Source: a bacterium (lineage in GTDB: Bacteria > Thermosulfidibacterota > Thermosulfidibacteria > Thermosulfidibacterales > JALWSI01). From it: a DNA stretch of 5,418 nt. Shown here one piece after another: positions 1-5,378 of the stretch. The position numbers and the translations under genes are program-made. A model generated the notes under the pieces. That model did not search any database. It worked only from the letters and a program-made list of their open reading frames with translations, and was not told where the DNA came from. Position 1 is the stretch's first letter. Each line of letters begins with the position of its first letter. The DNA is taken from positions 1 to 5,418 of the forward strand of contig JALWSI010000147.1 in the NCBI GenBank assembly GCA_027080315.1, read 5' to 3'.

Positions 1-408
1 CTGGTTATGAACGATAAAGACGTCCTCCATCTCTGCTGCTGTGATCGGAACTGGGAGAGCCCGGACGGGTTGAAGAGGGATTTTGACGTTACCCTTACCT
101 ATGAAAGGGGTAAGGTTGAGAAGGAGGACATGTCCATCATCACCGATATAGTCATTCCAAAGATAGAAGAGTTCAATCCCGATCTCTTCTTCTGGTATTT
201 TGGATTTGACACCTGCTCTGGTGATTATGGAAGCTTGGGGCTTAGCAGAGAGTTTTTTGTGGAGATGGGTAGGAAACTGGTGGATATGGCTTACAGAAAC
301 TGGAATGGCAAGATGCACGTGGTTCTTGCCGGTGGGGCCAATCGTGAGACCGCAACCTGGTTGCTTCCAAGGGTGATTCAGCTTCTTGCTCAGGAGGAGA
401 TCCTTTGA
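1..408 (+). CDS. Histone deacetylase-family protein (AcuC/HDAC-like), C-terminal part, 5' end outside window
   Basis: The frame is open from base 1, so the Met at base 7 is probably internal and the gene starts upstream. The visible 135 codons match the C-terminal third of the arginase/deacetylase fold (numbered from that Met). A strand ends in HLCCCDRNW, then IPKIEEFNPDLFFWYFGFD (50-68) corresponds to the family block 'iP.i..f.PDl.....GFD', where the final Asp (D68) is normally a Zn ligand. It is followed by SGD and a Leu-rich loop, then the closing strand HVVLAGGA (104-111). The family removes acetyl groups from lysine or polyamine-type substrates in the cytoplasm. At the position of the family's catalytic Tyr (GGY) this protein has Ala (GGA, codon 337-339), so activity may be altered or absent. 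The N-terminal His-Asp catalytic region lies outside the window. Its TGA overlaps the TTG start of the next gene, implying an operon. Family assignment is fairly safe; substrate is unknown. Confidence 0.8.
   Translation: MVMNDKDVLHLCCCDRNWESPDGLKRDFDVTLTYERGKVEKEDMSIITDIVIPKIEEFNPDLFFWYFGFDTCSGDYGSLGLSREFFVEMGRKLVDMAYRNWNGKMHVVLAGGANRETATWLLPRVIQLLAQEEIL
392..399 (+). promoter_or_regulatory. Ribosome binding site deciding a TTG start
   Basis: AGGAGGAG lies inside the last codons of the deacetylase-like gene, 5 nt before TTG at 405-407. This strong Shine-Dalgarno match supports the rare TTG start of the ferredoxin gene. Confidence 0.75.
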
Positions 409-872
409 AGTTCTCAAAAAAGGTTGTTTTGGAATTCCCTCAGCACACTTGGGACCAGCCCATAATCTACGCCTTGAACACCAAATACGATCTTATGTTC
501 AACATAATAAAGGCTAAGATCACCCCTCGTCAGGAGGGGGTTATGACCCTTGAACTCTCGGGGGATAAGGAGAACTTTGACAAAGGCATAGAGTTTCTCA
601 AAGAGGTGGGGGTTAGAGTTAGGTTTCTTGCTGGGGACATTGAAAGAGATGAAAAACTTTGCACCCATTGTGGATTGTGTACAGTGATCTGTCCCACCGA
701 TGCCCTATCTTTAAACCGGGATACCATGGAGGTCTCTTTTGATAAGGAGCGTTGTGTGGGTTGCGAGTTATGTGTTCCCTTGTGTCCTTTTAAGGCGATA
801 ATTATGAATATCCCTTCCCATTCCCAACGTAACAGTCTTCAGAACAATAGAAGAGGTAATAAAAAGCCTTAA
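405..872 (+). CDS. NIL-domain ferredoxin, 2[4Fe-4S] type
   Basis: A 155-residue cytoplasmic protein in two parts. Residues ~4-76 resemble a NIL domain, the ACT-like small-ligand fold also found at the C-terminus of MetN transporters; the pattern is a strand VVLEFP, a helix, a beta pair with MTLELSG, and GIEFLKEVGVRVRFL. Residues ~84-133 form a bacterial-type ferredoxin with two CxxCxxCxxxCP motifs: Cys86/89/92/96 and Cys117/120/123/127. Each should hold one 4Fe-4S cluster. A basic tail of about 20 residues follows. NIL-ferredoxins are known in anaerobes, where relatives (for example MA1822 of Methanosarcina) act with a DUF39 protein in homocysteine formation. No DUF39 gene is visible here, so a role in sulfur or methionine metabolism is only a suggestion. 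The TTG start is chosen because of the strong SD at 392-399 and the overlap TTGA with the upstream stop, which indicates translational coupling. The stop overlaps the stop of the convergent PilZ gene. Confidence 0.88.
   Translation: MKFSKKVVLEFPQHTWDQPIIYALNTKYDLMFNIIKAKITPRQEGVMTLELSGDKENFDKGIEFLKEVGVRVRFLAGDIERDEKLCTHCGLCTVICPTDALSLNRDTMEVSFDKERCVGCELCVPLCPFKAIIMNIPSHSQRNSLQNNRRGNKKP
869..872. other. TTAA palindrome supplying both convergent stop codons
   Basis: The + strand ferredoxin gene ends with TAA at 870-872. The minus-strand PilZ gene ends with TAA read from 871-869. The palindromic TTAA serves both, leaving no intergenic DNA and no visible hairpin terminator around it. Confidence 0.9.
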
Positions 873-1549
873 TCGTCCTTTGCAATTTCATCGTTATCAA
901 CCAGACGGCATACCTCTTTCAGCTCAGGAATCTTCTCTCTCATCACCTGTTCTATCTTCTCACTTGCTTCTGGAGATAGCGTATCAAACATGATCCCGTA
1001 GCCGTTGAAACCGGGCACATCTGTGGGAACCATCCTTACCGCTTTCCCGAGCGTGCTTATCTTTCCTCCGTCTATGTAGAAGGTGCAGATTATTGGAAGG
1101 TCCAGAGGTAGTATTCCTGCCACTGTAGCGAAACAACCCTTCTCTGTGAGGTCTCCCACCACTCCACCCAGGAGAGCCTCGCTGTCCTCGGTGGGATACC
1201 TGAAGGTTGCACATAAGTGCACCGGTATCCTTACGCTGCTTCTCATGTCGCATATCTCAAACTTTGAGCTTAGAGAGAACCTAACTAATCTGGGAGAGTC
1301 GGATATTTTAAGCACCTTGCTTTTGAAGCCTGCTCTCTTTTTGTCAACGGCAAAAGAGAGTAAAACCTCCTCTCCCTCGTTAAAGAAGATGGGGTTTCCT
1401 TTGTGGTCACAGGGCTCTAAGACCTCTAAGAAATCATCTGATACGTCCCAGATCACACCTCTTGCTTTTGGGAAGGTGCTCATCTTGTCTTCTGGGGAGG
1501 GGAAAATGTCTACGCTGGAGCATCTTGAAACGAGCTTTTTGGGGTCCAC
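869..1549 (-). CDS. PilZ-domain protein (YcgR-like two-part layout), probable c-di-GMP receptor
   Basis: A 226-residue soluble protein without signal peptide or membrane segment. The first ~98 residues form a beta-rich N-terminal region like the PilZN/YcgR-N domain (EGEEVLLSF near 58-66, VRFSLSSKF near 89-97). The PilZ domain follows. It shows the arginine motif RSSVR at 103-107 (RxxxR), then DLTEKG at 133-138, matching D/NxSxxG with Thr in place of Ser, and ends with GYGIMFD at 183-189 and a C-terminal helix. In the family these two motifs bind cyclic di-GMP, and YcgR-type proteins act on flagella or polysaccharide export. The partner here is not known. The start is GTG at 1549-1547: an in-frame TAA lies 18-20 nt upstream and AAAGGA (1560-1555) sits 5 nt before the GTG. 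A later ATG (codon 23) has no comparable SD. The gene begins only 21 nt after tRNA-Ser on the same strand, so it is probably expressed on the tRNA transcript or by readthrough. Confidence 0.87.
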   Translation of the reverse strand: MDPKKLVSRCSSVDIFPSPEDKMSTFPKARGVIWDVSDDFLEVLEPCDHKGNPIFFNEGEEVLLSFAVDKKRAGFKSKVLKISDSPRLVRFSLSSKFEICDMRSSVRIPVHLCATFRYPTEDSEALLGGVVGDLTEKGCFATVAGILPLDLPIICTFYIDGGKISTLGKAVRMVPTDVPGFNGYGIMFDTLSPEASEKIEQVMREKIPELKEVCRLVDNDEIAKDD

Positions 1550-1570: not shown

Positions 1571-1661
1571 TGGCGGAGAGGGAGGGATTCGAACCCTCGA
1601 TACGGTCTTCCCGTATCCTCGCTTAGCAGGCGAGTGCCTTCAGCCGCTCGGCCACCTCTCC
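1571..1661 (-). tRNA. tRNA-Ser, anticodon GCU
   Basis: The 91-nt minus-strand gene folds as a complete class II tRNA. It has acceptor stem GGAGAGG/CCTCTCC with G73 and an encoded CCA (1573-1571). The D-arm contains GCCGAGCGGCTGAAGGC and the anticodon stem is CTCGC/GCGAG with loop CTGCTAA. The anticodon GCT is at 1627-1625. The long variable arm is GATACGG, loop GAAGA, CCGTATC, and the T-arm is GAGGG-TTCGAAT-CCCTC. The long variable arm and G73 are serine identity features; it reads AGC/AGU codons. It stands between the propeller operon and the PilZ gene, all on the same strand. Confidence 0.98.
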
Positions 1662-1732: not shown

Positions 1733-1743
1733 GTGGTCACTTG
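1730..1743. repeat. Small inverted repeat over a stop codon
   Basis: CAAGTG (1730-1735) and CACTTG (1738-1743) are perfect 6-bp arms around a 2-bp centre. They span the TGA stop of the second propeller gene (1739-1737) and abut the candidate -35 box. It may be a small operator, or chance. Confidence 0.35.
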
Positions 1744-3491
1744 CCCAGGTGTAGAACGGTGTAGGTGAGTTCCCATATTCCGTCGGCTTTAAAGTTAGAG
1801 AGGTCGTCTTGCACCGTAGAGGGAACCACCAGAATGTAGAATATATAGTCCCCTTCCGGAAGAAGCAGGTCCCCCGTTATGGGGTTCACCACAGAAAAAG
1901 CAGGAAGTACCTCTGCCTTCAGTGGAGCCATCATATTCTTCTTCCAGGGGGCCAGGGTTGTTGATGAGAAGCTCCCGTCAGGTTGCAGGATATAGAGACC
2001 ACTGCCTATGCCAATAGCGAAGTAGATGTTTACAGCCACTGGGTTTCCTTCTTCATCCACATAGAGGGGCAGAGAAAGGTCAATTTTAAGCTGGGTGCCG
2101 TTATTAGCTACGCTACCCAACCCCAGGTAGTTGCCCTCTGTTACATCAGGATCCTCTTGAAGGGAGGGATTTCTCACCTCAGCGGTCTTGAGGGTGTGAG
2201 AAAGCACGTGGCCTTTGTAGCGAATAATCTTCCACTCGTAGCCTCCCACGCTTCCAGACACACCAACCACTGTGGCCTCTCCTGTCTTTGATACCACCAC
2301 CTTGTAGCCAGTTTCGTTGATGCCAGAATCGCCTATGATATCGCTCCATAGCTGGTCGCCTTCGCTATTGTAAGAGATTACCAGAATCTCCTTCTCGCTA
2401 CCGTTGTAGGTGTATCCCGTAACTATGACATTGCCGGACAGATCGCAGGCTACATCGTAGGCCTCGTCGTTATTACCGCCGTCGTAGCTTCTTGAGATCA
2501 CTTCGCTGCCATCAGATGGGTCATACCACACCACCTTGAGGTTACGCCGGCTCTCCTTTTCGTATCCGGCCACCACAACCCTTCCAGTGTTGTCAAAGGC
2601 TACGCTCCTTGCTTCACTGGTGGTGTCCATAACCTTGGTCCAAAGCAAGTTGCCTTCTGCCGAGAGCAGAACCACTGTCCAACGATGGTCAGTTCCGTTG
2701 TAAGAATAACCCACTGCAGCCACCTTGCCATCTGGTGCAACAGCCAGGTCCTTCATCTGTCCGGTGGGAAGATCTGGCCCTGCTTTCTCCCAAAGCACTT
2801 CACCGTCAAGGGTGTTCATCCCTATGAGTAGCCAGGAGGAGGCTGTTGAGTTGCTTCTCATTCCACCTACCACCGCTAAGTGGTTTCCTCCAGTACCTAC
2901 AAAGTTTGCAAAATCGTTGGTGGTTCTCGTTAGGGTCTTGGCCCATGCCCTGTTTCCAGTTGTGGTGTCGTATGCATGAACCCTGATGTAAGTGTTGGAG
3001 CCATCGTTTGTGTATCCTGCAACTACAGCGGTGTCTCCATCCAGGTCTATGGCCCTGGCCTCGTCGTCGTGCCCGTTGTTATCCCAGGAGTCTTGCCAGG
3101 TGATCTCTCCACTTAAGGGGTCTATCTCTACAACGTGCCAGTCTTTACTTGAGCTGTTGCTTCCTTGGCTACCTGCAACAATCACCTTTGAGTCTATTTC
3201 AGCCACCCCGTAGGCAGTGTCACAATCGCTGAAGTCCTTTGTGAGTTGAGAAGGCAGCTTTTTTCCGCTTTCGTAGTAGATGATGCTCCAGTCGTCTCCT
3301 CCAGGTGAATGCTCCACGGTTCCTGCCATGGCCACGTTTCCTTGGTTGTCAACAGTAACGGCAGGAGGGGTATTGCTTCCAGTTACCGTGCTGGGAGGAT
3401 AAAGCCTCTCTGTGCTGCCGTCTGCCAAGGCGTAGCTGCATAGCATCGCCACTGTGCAAAGGGCAATTAGTAGCTGAATTAATCTCCTCAT
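1737..3491 (-). CDS. Exported 8-bladed beta-propeller protein with conserved C-terminal domain (paralogue 2)
   Basis: 584 residues. A Sec signal peptide occupies 1-23 (MRR, hydrophobic core, cleavage after ALA), with no lipobox, so the mature protein should be periplasmic or secreted. Residues ~41-430 hold eight repeats of about 50 residues, anchored by 'hxVxG' strands ending at G57, G107, G159, G209, G261, G309, G359 and G410. Typical blades read DGKVAAVGYSYNG... followed by 'GNLLW'. This resembles delta-60/SBBP-type propeller repeats. Residues ~431-584 form a separate domain with YLGLGSVANNG (455-465), LPEGDYIFYILVV (544-556) and a final strand LTYTVL; the neighbouring protein has the same domain. 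Propellers of this kind bind ligands or partners; no catalytic motif is seen, so the function is unknown. ATG at 3491 is preceded by AAGGAGG with a 6-nt spacing, starting directly after the stop of the upstream paralogue. A PQQ-type enzyme is less likely, because repeat length and motifs differ. Confidence 0.88.
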   Translation of the reverse strand: MRRLIQLLIALCTVAMLCSYALADGSTERLYPPSTVTGSNTPPAVTVDNQGNVAMAGTVEHSPGGDDWSIIYYESGKKLPSQLTKDFSDCDTAYGVAEIDSKVIVAGSQGSNSSSKDWHVVEIDPLSGEITWQDSWDNNGHDDEARAIDLDGDTAVVAGYTNDGSNTYIRVHAYDTTTGNRAWAKTLTRTTNDFANFVGTGGNHLAVVGGMRSNSTASSWLLIGMNTLDGEVLWEKAGPDLPTGQMKDLAVAPDGKVAAVGYSYNGTDHRWTVVLLSAEGNLLWTKVMDTTSEARSVAFDNTGRVVVAGYEKESRRNLKVVWYDPSDGSEVISRSYDGGNNDEAYDVACDLSGNVIVTGYTYNGSEKEILVISYNSEGDQLWSDIIGDSGINETGYKVVVSKTGEATVVGVSGSVGGYEWKIIRYKGHVLSHTLKTAEVRNPSLQEDPDVTEGNYLGLGSVANNGTQLKIDLSLPLYVDEEGNPVAVNIYFAIGIGSGLYILQPDGSFSSTTLAPWKKNMMAPLKAEVLPAFSVVNPITGDLLLPEGDYIFYILVVPSTVQDDLSNFKADGIWELTYTVLHLGK

Positions 3492-3497
3492 TTTTCT

Positions 3498-3504
3498 CCT
3501 CCTT
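3498..3504 (-). promoter_or_regulatory. Ribosome binding site in the propeller gene junction
   Basis: AAGGAGG (3504-3498) directly follows the TGA of the first propeller gene (3507-3505) and lies 6 nt before the ATG of the second. The whole junction is 13 nt, so ribosomes ending the first gene can restart on the second. Confidence 0.8.
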
Positions 3505-5265
3505 TCACCTTAAGTTTATGGCGGTGTATTCAATAAAGTACTTTTGGGTTTCCCAGTTGAAGCTATTAAAGTTCTCAGCATCTTCTCCATAAAGGGCTGC
3601 AATGAAAAAGAGATACTCCCCCTCTGGAATGGTTAGCTCTCCCTCATCATTTCTGACGCGTATGCTTGGCAAGAGGGTGCCTTCTACAGGGTATGAGAGA
3701 TCTTTCAAAACAGGCTCGTCTTGGGTGGTTAGTGTAAACTCCTGATCAAAGAAGAGAATCCCCACAGAGGGAACCACTATGCCAGCGTAGGCTGCTATTT
3801 GAAGCGGCAGATACGTTGAGTTGTCCAGAAATACGGGGAAGGCAACAGAGAACTCCACGCTGTCCCCACCATTGGCTATCTGGCCTATTCCAAGGTGCTC
3901 TTCTGTTGATACATTTGTTTTCTCTTTTGGAGAGACGAAAAGGATCTTTTGCCCAAGGGTTTCTGTGCCATACTGCTGGCCGAACGCCATGAGCTTCCAA
4001 TCTTCTCCGGTTCTTCCCACAAGGGCTATCCCTCCATCTGGGGCAAGGGATAGTTGAGGATCCGTGTCTTCTGTTCCTCCGTCGTAGGTGTACTCCCAGA
4101 CCTTCTCTCCGAGAGACGAGAAACGACCTATCCACCAATCGTCATCCTTTCCGTTGTTTGAGATGCCTATTGCAACAATGTGGGTGGATAGGTCTCCTTT
4201 TACCTGTGTTATGTTCTGGTCGTTCTCTTCAGAAAGCCACTTTCTCCAGAGTTCCTTTCCCTCTTTGTCAACTGCCAAAAGCAGACCCTCTTTCCCTAAT
4301 TTCTCGCTTACGTAAGAGGTTCCACCTATGGCCCATCCTACTCCTGGTATATCCGTTGCAGATAAGGCCCTGTCTTCGTGGTCTCCTCGGTAGTATCCCC
4401 TCCAGAAGACTCCACCAGAAGAGCTGTACTGAACGAAGATCCAGTCATTGCCTTCTCCTCCATTGGTGGTACCGCACACCAAGGTTCGCCCTTTATTGTC
4501 TAAGGCAAGGTCAGTTGCCTCTGCTGTTCCGTCTCCATACTCCTTCTTCACCCAGCTTCTCTCCCCTTGGGATTGGTAGCTCAGCAGCACCCAGTGCTTA
4601 TCCTCTTCGCTGCCCGAGTTGCCCAGAACCAGCAGATTGCCGTTGTGGTCAAATTTAAGGGCCACCAGAGAGTCGTCTCCTTCGTCGTCGTATATTAAGG
4701 GATTGCTCCATACCATGCCTCCCTGCCCATTGTACAAGAGAACGAGAAGGTCGTCGTCGCTTCCGTTATTGGTGATGCCTCCAACGGCTATTCTCTCTTC
4801 CCCCTCGGGATTCACCCATACAGCCACTGCCAAACCCTTGTCTCCGTGGGGTCCTGGATATCCCCTCTGCCACTTCACCTCTCCCTCTTCTGAGAACATG
4901 ATCACCAGACAGTCATCGTCTTTGCCGTTGTTGGTGGTTCCAACCACAACCACCTCTCCTTTCGGGGTTATTGCCACTGCGGAAACCGTGTCGTCATGGC
5001 CTCCGTCATAGCTCTTGCGCCAGAAAAGAGAGTATTCACCGGTACTATCCCTTTTGTAGAGAGAGACGCTCCAGTCCTTCTCACCAGACTCTTTGATTAC
5101 TGTGCCTGCAACGGCAATTGAACCCTTCACACCGTAGGCCACCTTTGGCGGGTAGATGCTGCCAGCCATGGGTTCCTCAAAGATGGGAGTTTCTGCCAGT
5201 GCAGCTGTTGTCCATATTCCAGATATTGCTATTACCAGCACCCAGATAAGAGGCTTGAGCTTCAT
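3505..5265 (-). CDS. Exported 8-bladed beta-propeller protein with conserved C-terminal domain (paralogue 1)
   Basis: 586 residues, first gene of the pair. The signal peptide is 1-24 (MKLK, hydrophobic core, cleavage after ALA, before ETP). Residues ~37-433 carry eight propeller repeats of 50-55 residues, with key glycines G54, G109, G163, G215, G265, G315, G367 and G417. Many blades end 'GE..W...Y.GG..D', for example WRKSYDGGHDD (82-92). The last blade (VGRTGEDWKLMAF, 416-428) is short, and the strand at YPPKVAYGVKG (38-48) may complete it in the usual ring closure. Three blades contain acidic turns NNGKDDD/NNGSDDD (112-118, 166-172, 370-376). Residues ~434-586 are the C-terminal domain shared with the next gene: HLGIGQIANGG (457-467), IPEGEYLFFIAAL (546-558) and IEYTAI near the end. 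It is probably periplasmic or extracellular and its ligand is unknown. ATG at 5265 has AAGGAGG 8 nt upstream. It shares 'YPP', 'AGTV' and 'DWS' in blade 1 with its neighbour, supporting an old tandem duplication. Confidence 0.88.
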   Translation of the reverse strand: MKLKPLIWVLVIAISGIWTTAALAETPIFEEPMAGSIYPPKVAYGVKGSIAVAGTVIKESGEKDWSVSLYKRDSTGEYSLFWRKSYDGGHDDTVSAVAITPKGEVVVVGTTNNGKDDDCLVIMFSEEGEVKWQRGYPGPHGDKGLAVAVWVNPEGEERIAVGGITNNGSDDDLLVLLYNGQGGMVWSNPLIYDDEGDDSLVALKFDHNGNLLVLGNSGSEEDKHWVLLSYQSQGERSWVKKEYGDGTAEATDLALDNKGRTLVCGTTNGGEGNDWIFVQYSSSGGVFWRGYYRGDHEDRALSATDIPGVGWAIGGTSYVSEKLGKEGLLLAVDKEGKELWRKWLSEENDQNITQVKGDLSTHIVAIGISNNGKDDDWWIGRFSSLGEKVWEYTYDGGTEDTDPQLSLAPDGGIALVGRTGEDWKLMAFGQQYGTETLGQKILFVSPKEKTNVSTEEHLGIGQIANGGDSVEFSVAFPVFLDNSTYLPLQIAAYAGIVVPSVGILFFDQEFTLTTQDEPVLKDLSYPVEGTLLPSIRVRNDEGELTIPEGEYLFFIAALYGEDAENFNSFNWETQKYFIEYTAINLR

Positions 5266-5378
5266 GGTTCTTTCCTCCTTGCTGCTATATTTAGCGTTGC
5301 AAAGGGGCTTTTACCACAACTTATTGGGGACCACAAGGGTTAAGATCATAAAAGCAGAGGGTTTATATTGGGGAGGGT
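5266..5378 (-). promoter_or_regulatory. Leader region of the propeller operon
   Basis: This is the 113 bp between the tRNA-His 3' end and the first propeller ATG. AAGGAGG at 5280-5274 is the ribosome binding site. A weak promoter can be drawn on the minus strand: TTGTGG (5336-5331), 17 bp, TAAAAG (5313-5308). A TATGAT (5350-5345) has no matching -35. TTGTGGT occurs twice as a direct repeat (5336-5330 and 5319-5313) with a 17-bp period. No clear terminator hairpin for tRNA-His is visible, so readthrough from the tRNA into the operon is possible. The ribosome site is solid; the promoter is not. Confidence 0.4.

Follow-up and report, generated by a model that had tools for sequence, protein, structure and literature searches.

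The window analysed here, a stretch of 5,418 nucleotides from contig C147 of a bacterial genome assembly (1.84 Mb in 253 contigs), contains two adjacent genes, here called A and B, whose products end in the same kind of C-terminal domain (hereafter the tail). The question raised by this locus is whether A and B form a dedicated pair, as an initial annotation made from the sequence had suggested, and what the shared tail contributes to them. The reading that we consider likely is that both are secreted or periplasmic propellers of the delta-60/PQQ kind, each carrying one C-terminal modular tail common to many exported proteins. A literature search returned nothing on the delta-60 repeat or on the tail domain.

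Genes A and B and their propellers

Gene A (1737..3491, minus strand) codes for a protein of 584 aa, and its open reading frame and a Pfam PQQ_2 match predict an exported delta-60/PQQ-like beta-propeller followed by a C-terminal accessory domain. Gene B (3505..5265, minus strand) codes for a protein of 586 aa, predicted from its open reading frame and a match to TIGR02608 below the cut-off to be an exported beta-propeller that ends in a domain of this type as well. The locus had been placed at 1740-5157; the two open reading frames do exist, but the end at 5157 leaves out the first 36 codons of B. As read from the open reading frames, a gap of 13 bp separates the two genes, and each is preceded by a Shine-Dalgarno-like sequence: AAAGGAGGAG (AGGAGG; 3495..3504, minus strand), within the gap and ahead of A, and GCAAGGAGGA (AGGAGG; 5272..5281, minus strand), ahead of B. 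Since the genes are contiguous, lie on the same strand and have such a site each, they are probably co-transcribed. A signal-peptide-like N-terminal stretch was recognized by eye in both proteins, in agreement with the initial annotation. The putative signal peptide of A comprises approximately residues 1-24 (3420..3491, minus strand; MRRLIQLLIALCTVAMLCSYALA|D, ALA|D), in which n, h, and c regions could be distinguished, and that of B also approximately residues 1-24 (5194..5265, minus strand; MKLKPLIWVLVIAISGIWTTAALA|E, ALA|E).

The propeller parts occupy 2202..3419 in A and 3976..5193 in B (both minus strand), and repeat analysis divided each of them into eight units of ~50 residues. Residue-similarity autocorrelation, evaluated against shuffled sequences, peaked at lag 51 in A (z 6.6) and at lags 50 and 52 in B (z 6.0 and 5.7, respectively), and a hydrophobic-G strand motif recurs eight times in A (53..406) and eight times in B (50..413) with a spacing of ~50 residues. 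The two proteins had been described as eight-bladed propellers: the eight units are evident in each sequence, but the number of blades, and with it the closure of an eight-bladed ring, is extrapolated from this count. Regarding family assignment, residues 119-309 of A matched PF13360 (PQQ_2, BamB-like propeller) with 46.2 bits, above the cut-off of 27.6, and no match of B to this family was found up to E 1. Against the delta-60 repeat TIGR02608 (cut-off 76.5 bits), A reached 53.3 bits (E 1.7e-14) and B 34.4 bits (E 1.5e-8), both below the cut-off; against PF06739 (SBBP, cut-off 20.5 bits), B scored 13.7 bits, also below, and the paralogue C140 scored 41.1 bits. Judged by these profile scores, A and B are related to TIGR02608, yet not filed as members. 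They resemble the delta-60/DUF5122/SBBP/PQQ-like propellers (TIGR02608, PF17164, PF06739, PF13360) in being exported bacterial proteins built of ~50-residue units; however, they fall under the curated cut-offs of TIGR02608 and DUF5122, and the tail lies outside the description of these families.

Protein A was also modelled without an alignment. This model had a pLDDT of 55 overall and useful confidence only for approximately residues 90-390, and it was used for the propeller only. Structural alignment matched it to solved propellers with Z 25-36, which places this part of A in the beta-propeller fold. The nearest solved fold was that of the propeller at the C-terminus of CylK, a Friedel-Crafts alkylating enzyme (PDB 7fh6, 7ron; Z 36.5 over 342 residues, rmsd 3.2); its identity to A is, however, 17-18%, and A gives no sign of catalysis. 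The CylK alignment spans residues 67-429 of A and omits the first unit, and therefore the match does not fix the number of blades. At the sequence level, A had no match among solved structures, and a search of a collection of 84,980 species with full-length A gave no confirmed relative.

Family status and predicted fold of the tail

The tail makes up the C-terminal end of both proteins, with a length of ~150-155 residues, at 1740..2213 in A and 3508..3975 in B (both minus strand); the ranges first given, 1740-2201 and 3508-3966, are correct within a few residues. Three alignments were used for its analysis: A1, representing this lineage; A2, mostly other phyla; and A3, of 23 rows, from which the tail of A was modelled. 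The proposed homology of the two tails was upheld, since a query with the tail of B recovered that of A in the same genome (E 5.6e-13) and the blocks pointed out as shared do align (GLG/GIG..AN.G, LPEGDYIFY/IPEGEYLFF, and WELTYTV/YFIEYTA). The tail of B, which is the most diverged copy of this genome, matched profile A1 with E 1.7e-53, being itself a row of A1, and the independent profile A2 with E 1.2e-4. Profiles A1 and A2 align with each other over 112 columns (probability 99, E 2.3e-18), indicating that the tails of this lineage and the foreign ones constitute one family. No part of alignment A1 was sufficiently conserved for scanning the species collection, and A2 was used instead.

The initial annotation could not place the tail in any named family, and profile scans of Pfam and NCBIfam, in which no real match to a well-characterized domain appeared, led to the same result. 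In Pfam none of the 23 aligned members matched at E <= 0.1, and the scan of NCBIfam with these 23 members gave a single match (E 0.051) that was taken as chance-level; scans of both proteins and of their tails against Pfam, NCBIfam, and PHROGs provided no family for the tail. Caprin-2, the sole solved-structure match of profile A1, was rejected as a relative, its E of 0.9 being taken as chance, and a sequence search of solved structures with alignment A3 found none. A search of viral contigs yielded no relative either, and there is consequently no sign of a phage origin.

From alignment A3, AlphaFold2 built a high-confidence beta-sandwich model of the C-terminal domain of A (pLDDT 90.6, pTM 0.85). 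Foldseek gave no match for it in the PDB at E <= 1e-3, and a fold search of BFVD was likewise negative at that threshold. A structural aligner returned many generic Ig/FnIII-like matches, among which RbmA, a biofilm scaffold, ranked first (PDB 4be6; Z 6.5 over 95 residues, rmsd 3.0); according to the calibration of this aligner, a Z under 8 may reflect a mere common arrangement. The modelled tail is likewise a beta-sandwich, as are Ig/FnIII-like accessory domains such as RbmA, but its identity to RbmA is 12% and a Z of 6.5 is not diagnostic. In alignment A3, W573 is invariant (23/23 rows) and P545 and G547 are present in 21/23; the conserved aromatic residues are W573, W516, Y549, Y552, and Y490. 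The tail is a modular domain, predicted to be a beta-sandwich and uncatalogued in the libraries searched, and it probably belongs to a known general kind, the Ig-like accessory domains that exported proteins of bacteria carry.

Carriers of the tail and relation of A to B

Searches of the contigs of the same genome located the tail on about eleven proteins or fragments, A and B included. Three more propellers end in it (C140, C109, and C95), as do a PPC-type lipoprotein (C158), a subtilase (C206; L060 2321-4912, G000:C206; Pfam Peptidase_S8), and a papain-family protease (C216; L025 1763-3754, G000:C216; Pfam Peptidase_C1 and Lectin_like). It is also borne, close to the N-terminus, by a GH5 enzyme (C208; Pfam Cellulase). 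Two further copies (C3 and C90) are fragments at contig edges, both running off the right end, and a further delta-60 propeller (C220; G000:C220 1-1078) runs off the contig start. Because of these assembly breaks, the count for this genome probably underestimates the family. The tail of the C216 protease groups in the tail tree with that of the C95 propeller (97/94), to which it is 54% identical; thus, within a single tail lineage, the domain is joined to two unlike front parts.

Profile searches found the tail in Nitrospinae, Nitrospirae, Deltaproteobacteria/Thermodesulfobacteriota, one Deferribacteres genome, and one Persephonella genome. A likeness to exported proteins of Deltaproteobacteria had been remarked upon at the outset, and the tail does occur on such proteins. 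The carrier genomes searched have 1-13 copies each, and in a broad sample the tail was found at E <= 1e-3 in 4/385 other genomes: its spread is wide yet patchy. Partner domains elsewhere (Pfam) include matrixin, BNR, FG-GAP, FGE-sulfatase, multihaem cytochrome, and BACON. Its position varies as well, from the C-terminus to near the N-terminus (C208, L097, L099, L107, and L109) or nearly alone after a signal peptide (L048/L084, 210 aa). One Nitrospirae protein (L101 34-2427, minus strand) has two tail copies followed by multihaem cytochrome-type motifs.

This distribution bears on the earlier proposal that A and B are a conserved two-gene unit whose products work together. That they form a dedicated heteromeric complex, at the surface or in the periplasm, by means of their tails is in our judgement highly improbable. 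The gene arrangement described above, with probably one transcript, and the tail-only tree, in which the A and B copies form a moderately supported group (91/79), are consistent with such a complex. However, B sits on a very long branch in that tree, and the full-length tree leaves open how A is placed with respect to B and C140. The propellers of A and B are 23% identical and their tails 27%, whereas the corresponding values for A and C140 are 24% and 45%, so that the A-B propeller identity is not above that of A and C140, and the tail of A is nearer to that of C140 than to that of B. (The same A-B values led us to reject a recent tandem duplication as the origin of the two genes.) The tail is better kept than the propeller clearly in the pairs A-C140, C109-A, and C95-C109, but not in the pairs with B. 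Since the tail is present on many other proteins of this genome and on unrelated proteins elsewhere, its being shared is uninformative on binding between A and B. Moreover, none of eight genomes of the same order contained a homologue of A or B at the search cut-offs, and the pair is therefore unconserved in the available relatives; matches elsewhere are to propellers alone, such as one of 388 aa in G045. A and B are better understood as belonging to a lineage-specific set than as a dedicated pair, and the latter reading is corrected here.

Possible roles of the tail and neighbourhood of the genes

In the mode of action that we propose for A and B, the signal peptides would direct both proteins via Sec to the periplasm, from where some tail proteins may exit through the type II secretion system that the genome appears to have, given three secretins and one GspE above the curated cut-off. 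GspE-like and secretin genes also occur in type IV pili. The propeller face would bind a ligand, which may be a sugar, a protein, or a wall polymer, and the tail, probably a unit for spacing, adhesion, or docking, would hold the variable front on the cell surface, the matrix, or the substrate. Other Ig-like domains serve as pure spacers, and binding may consequently be absent.

Two more specific roles for the tail were considered. It could be a carbohydrate-binding module that brings its partner to a polysaccharide, a reading that we regard as tentative and rather doubtful: GH5, a lectin-like domain, and BNR and FG-GAP propellers among the partners, together with the conserved aromatic residues listed above, agree with it, but the tail is also attached to proteases, multihaem cytochromes, and FGE-like proteins, and its fold matches are generic. 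Alternatively, the tail might be a recognition or sorting module that serves type II secretion or fixes proteins to the outer surface, with a role, though not a sequence, like that of the type IX C-terminal domain. The two would be alike, as far as role is concerned, in being Ig-like terminal domains shared by unrelated secreted proteins. The recurrence of the tail on unrelated exported enzymes and propellers, with several copies per genome, and the secretins and GspE of this genome are in line with such sorting, which nevertheless seems unlikely. The tail is not always at the extreme C-terminus, as a sorting domain would be: its position near the N-terminus of several carriers sets it apart from the type IX domains and counts against a simple C-terminal sorting tag, and its spread is patchy although type II secretion is common. 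Type IX secretion is not known to be typical of the phyla carrying the tail. In its broadest form, the tail would be a docking or secretion-recognition domain in a general surface-display system, used to tether or pass on chemically unrelated exported proteins, with propellers and enzymes as exchangeable heads, across Nitrospirota, Nitrospinota, Desulfobacterota-like bacteria, Deferribacterota, and Aquificota; this too we hold to be improbable.

If the tail were given a name, a set of surface proteins in every carrier genome could be annotated. Its carriers include enzymes, cytochromes, and propellers from little-studied, mostly uncultured bacteria, and one testable question, namely what the shared module holds on to, would replace many separate hypothetical proteins.

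The A-B unit is flanked by tRNA genes, with tRNA-Ser(GCT) downstream (window 1571-1661) and two tRNAs upstream (C147 5382-5553), the nearer of which (5382-5465) is interrupted by a run of 10 N just past the right end of the window. Outside the window, the next exported gene (C147 5684-7117, minus strand) codes for a protein with FN3 (fibronectin-like) parts and a Y_Y_Y domain. When compared with profile A3, the C-terminus of this protein scored 15.1 bits, slightly above the 9.6 bits of the highest-scoring of 900 shuffles; it is a possible distant relative of the tail, as judged from this score, and was excluded from the counts. On the other side, the A-B unit adjoins a gene for a PilZ/YcgR-like protein (window 872-1549, minus strand), of a c-di-GMP receptor family. 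Beyond it lie a gene for a protein with a NIL domain and two 4Fe-4S clusters (window 405-869, plus strand) and, upstream of that gene, a fragment of the histone-deacetylase family (window 7-405).
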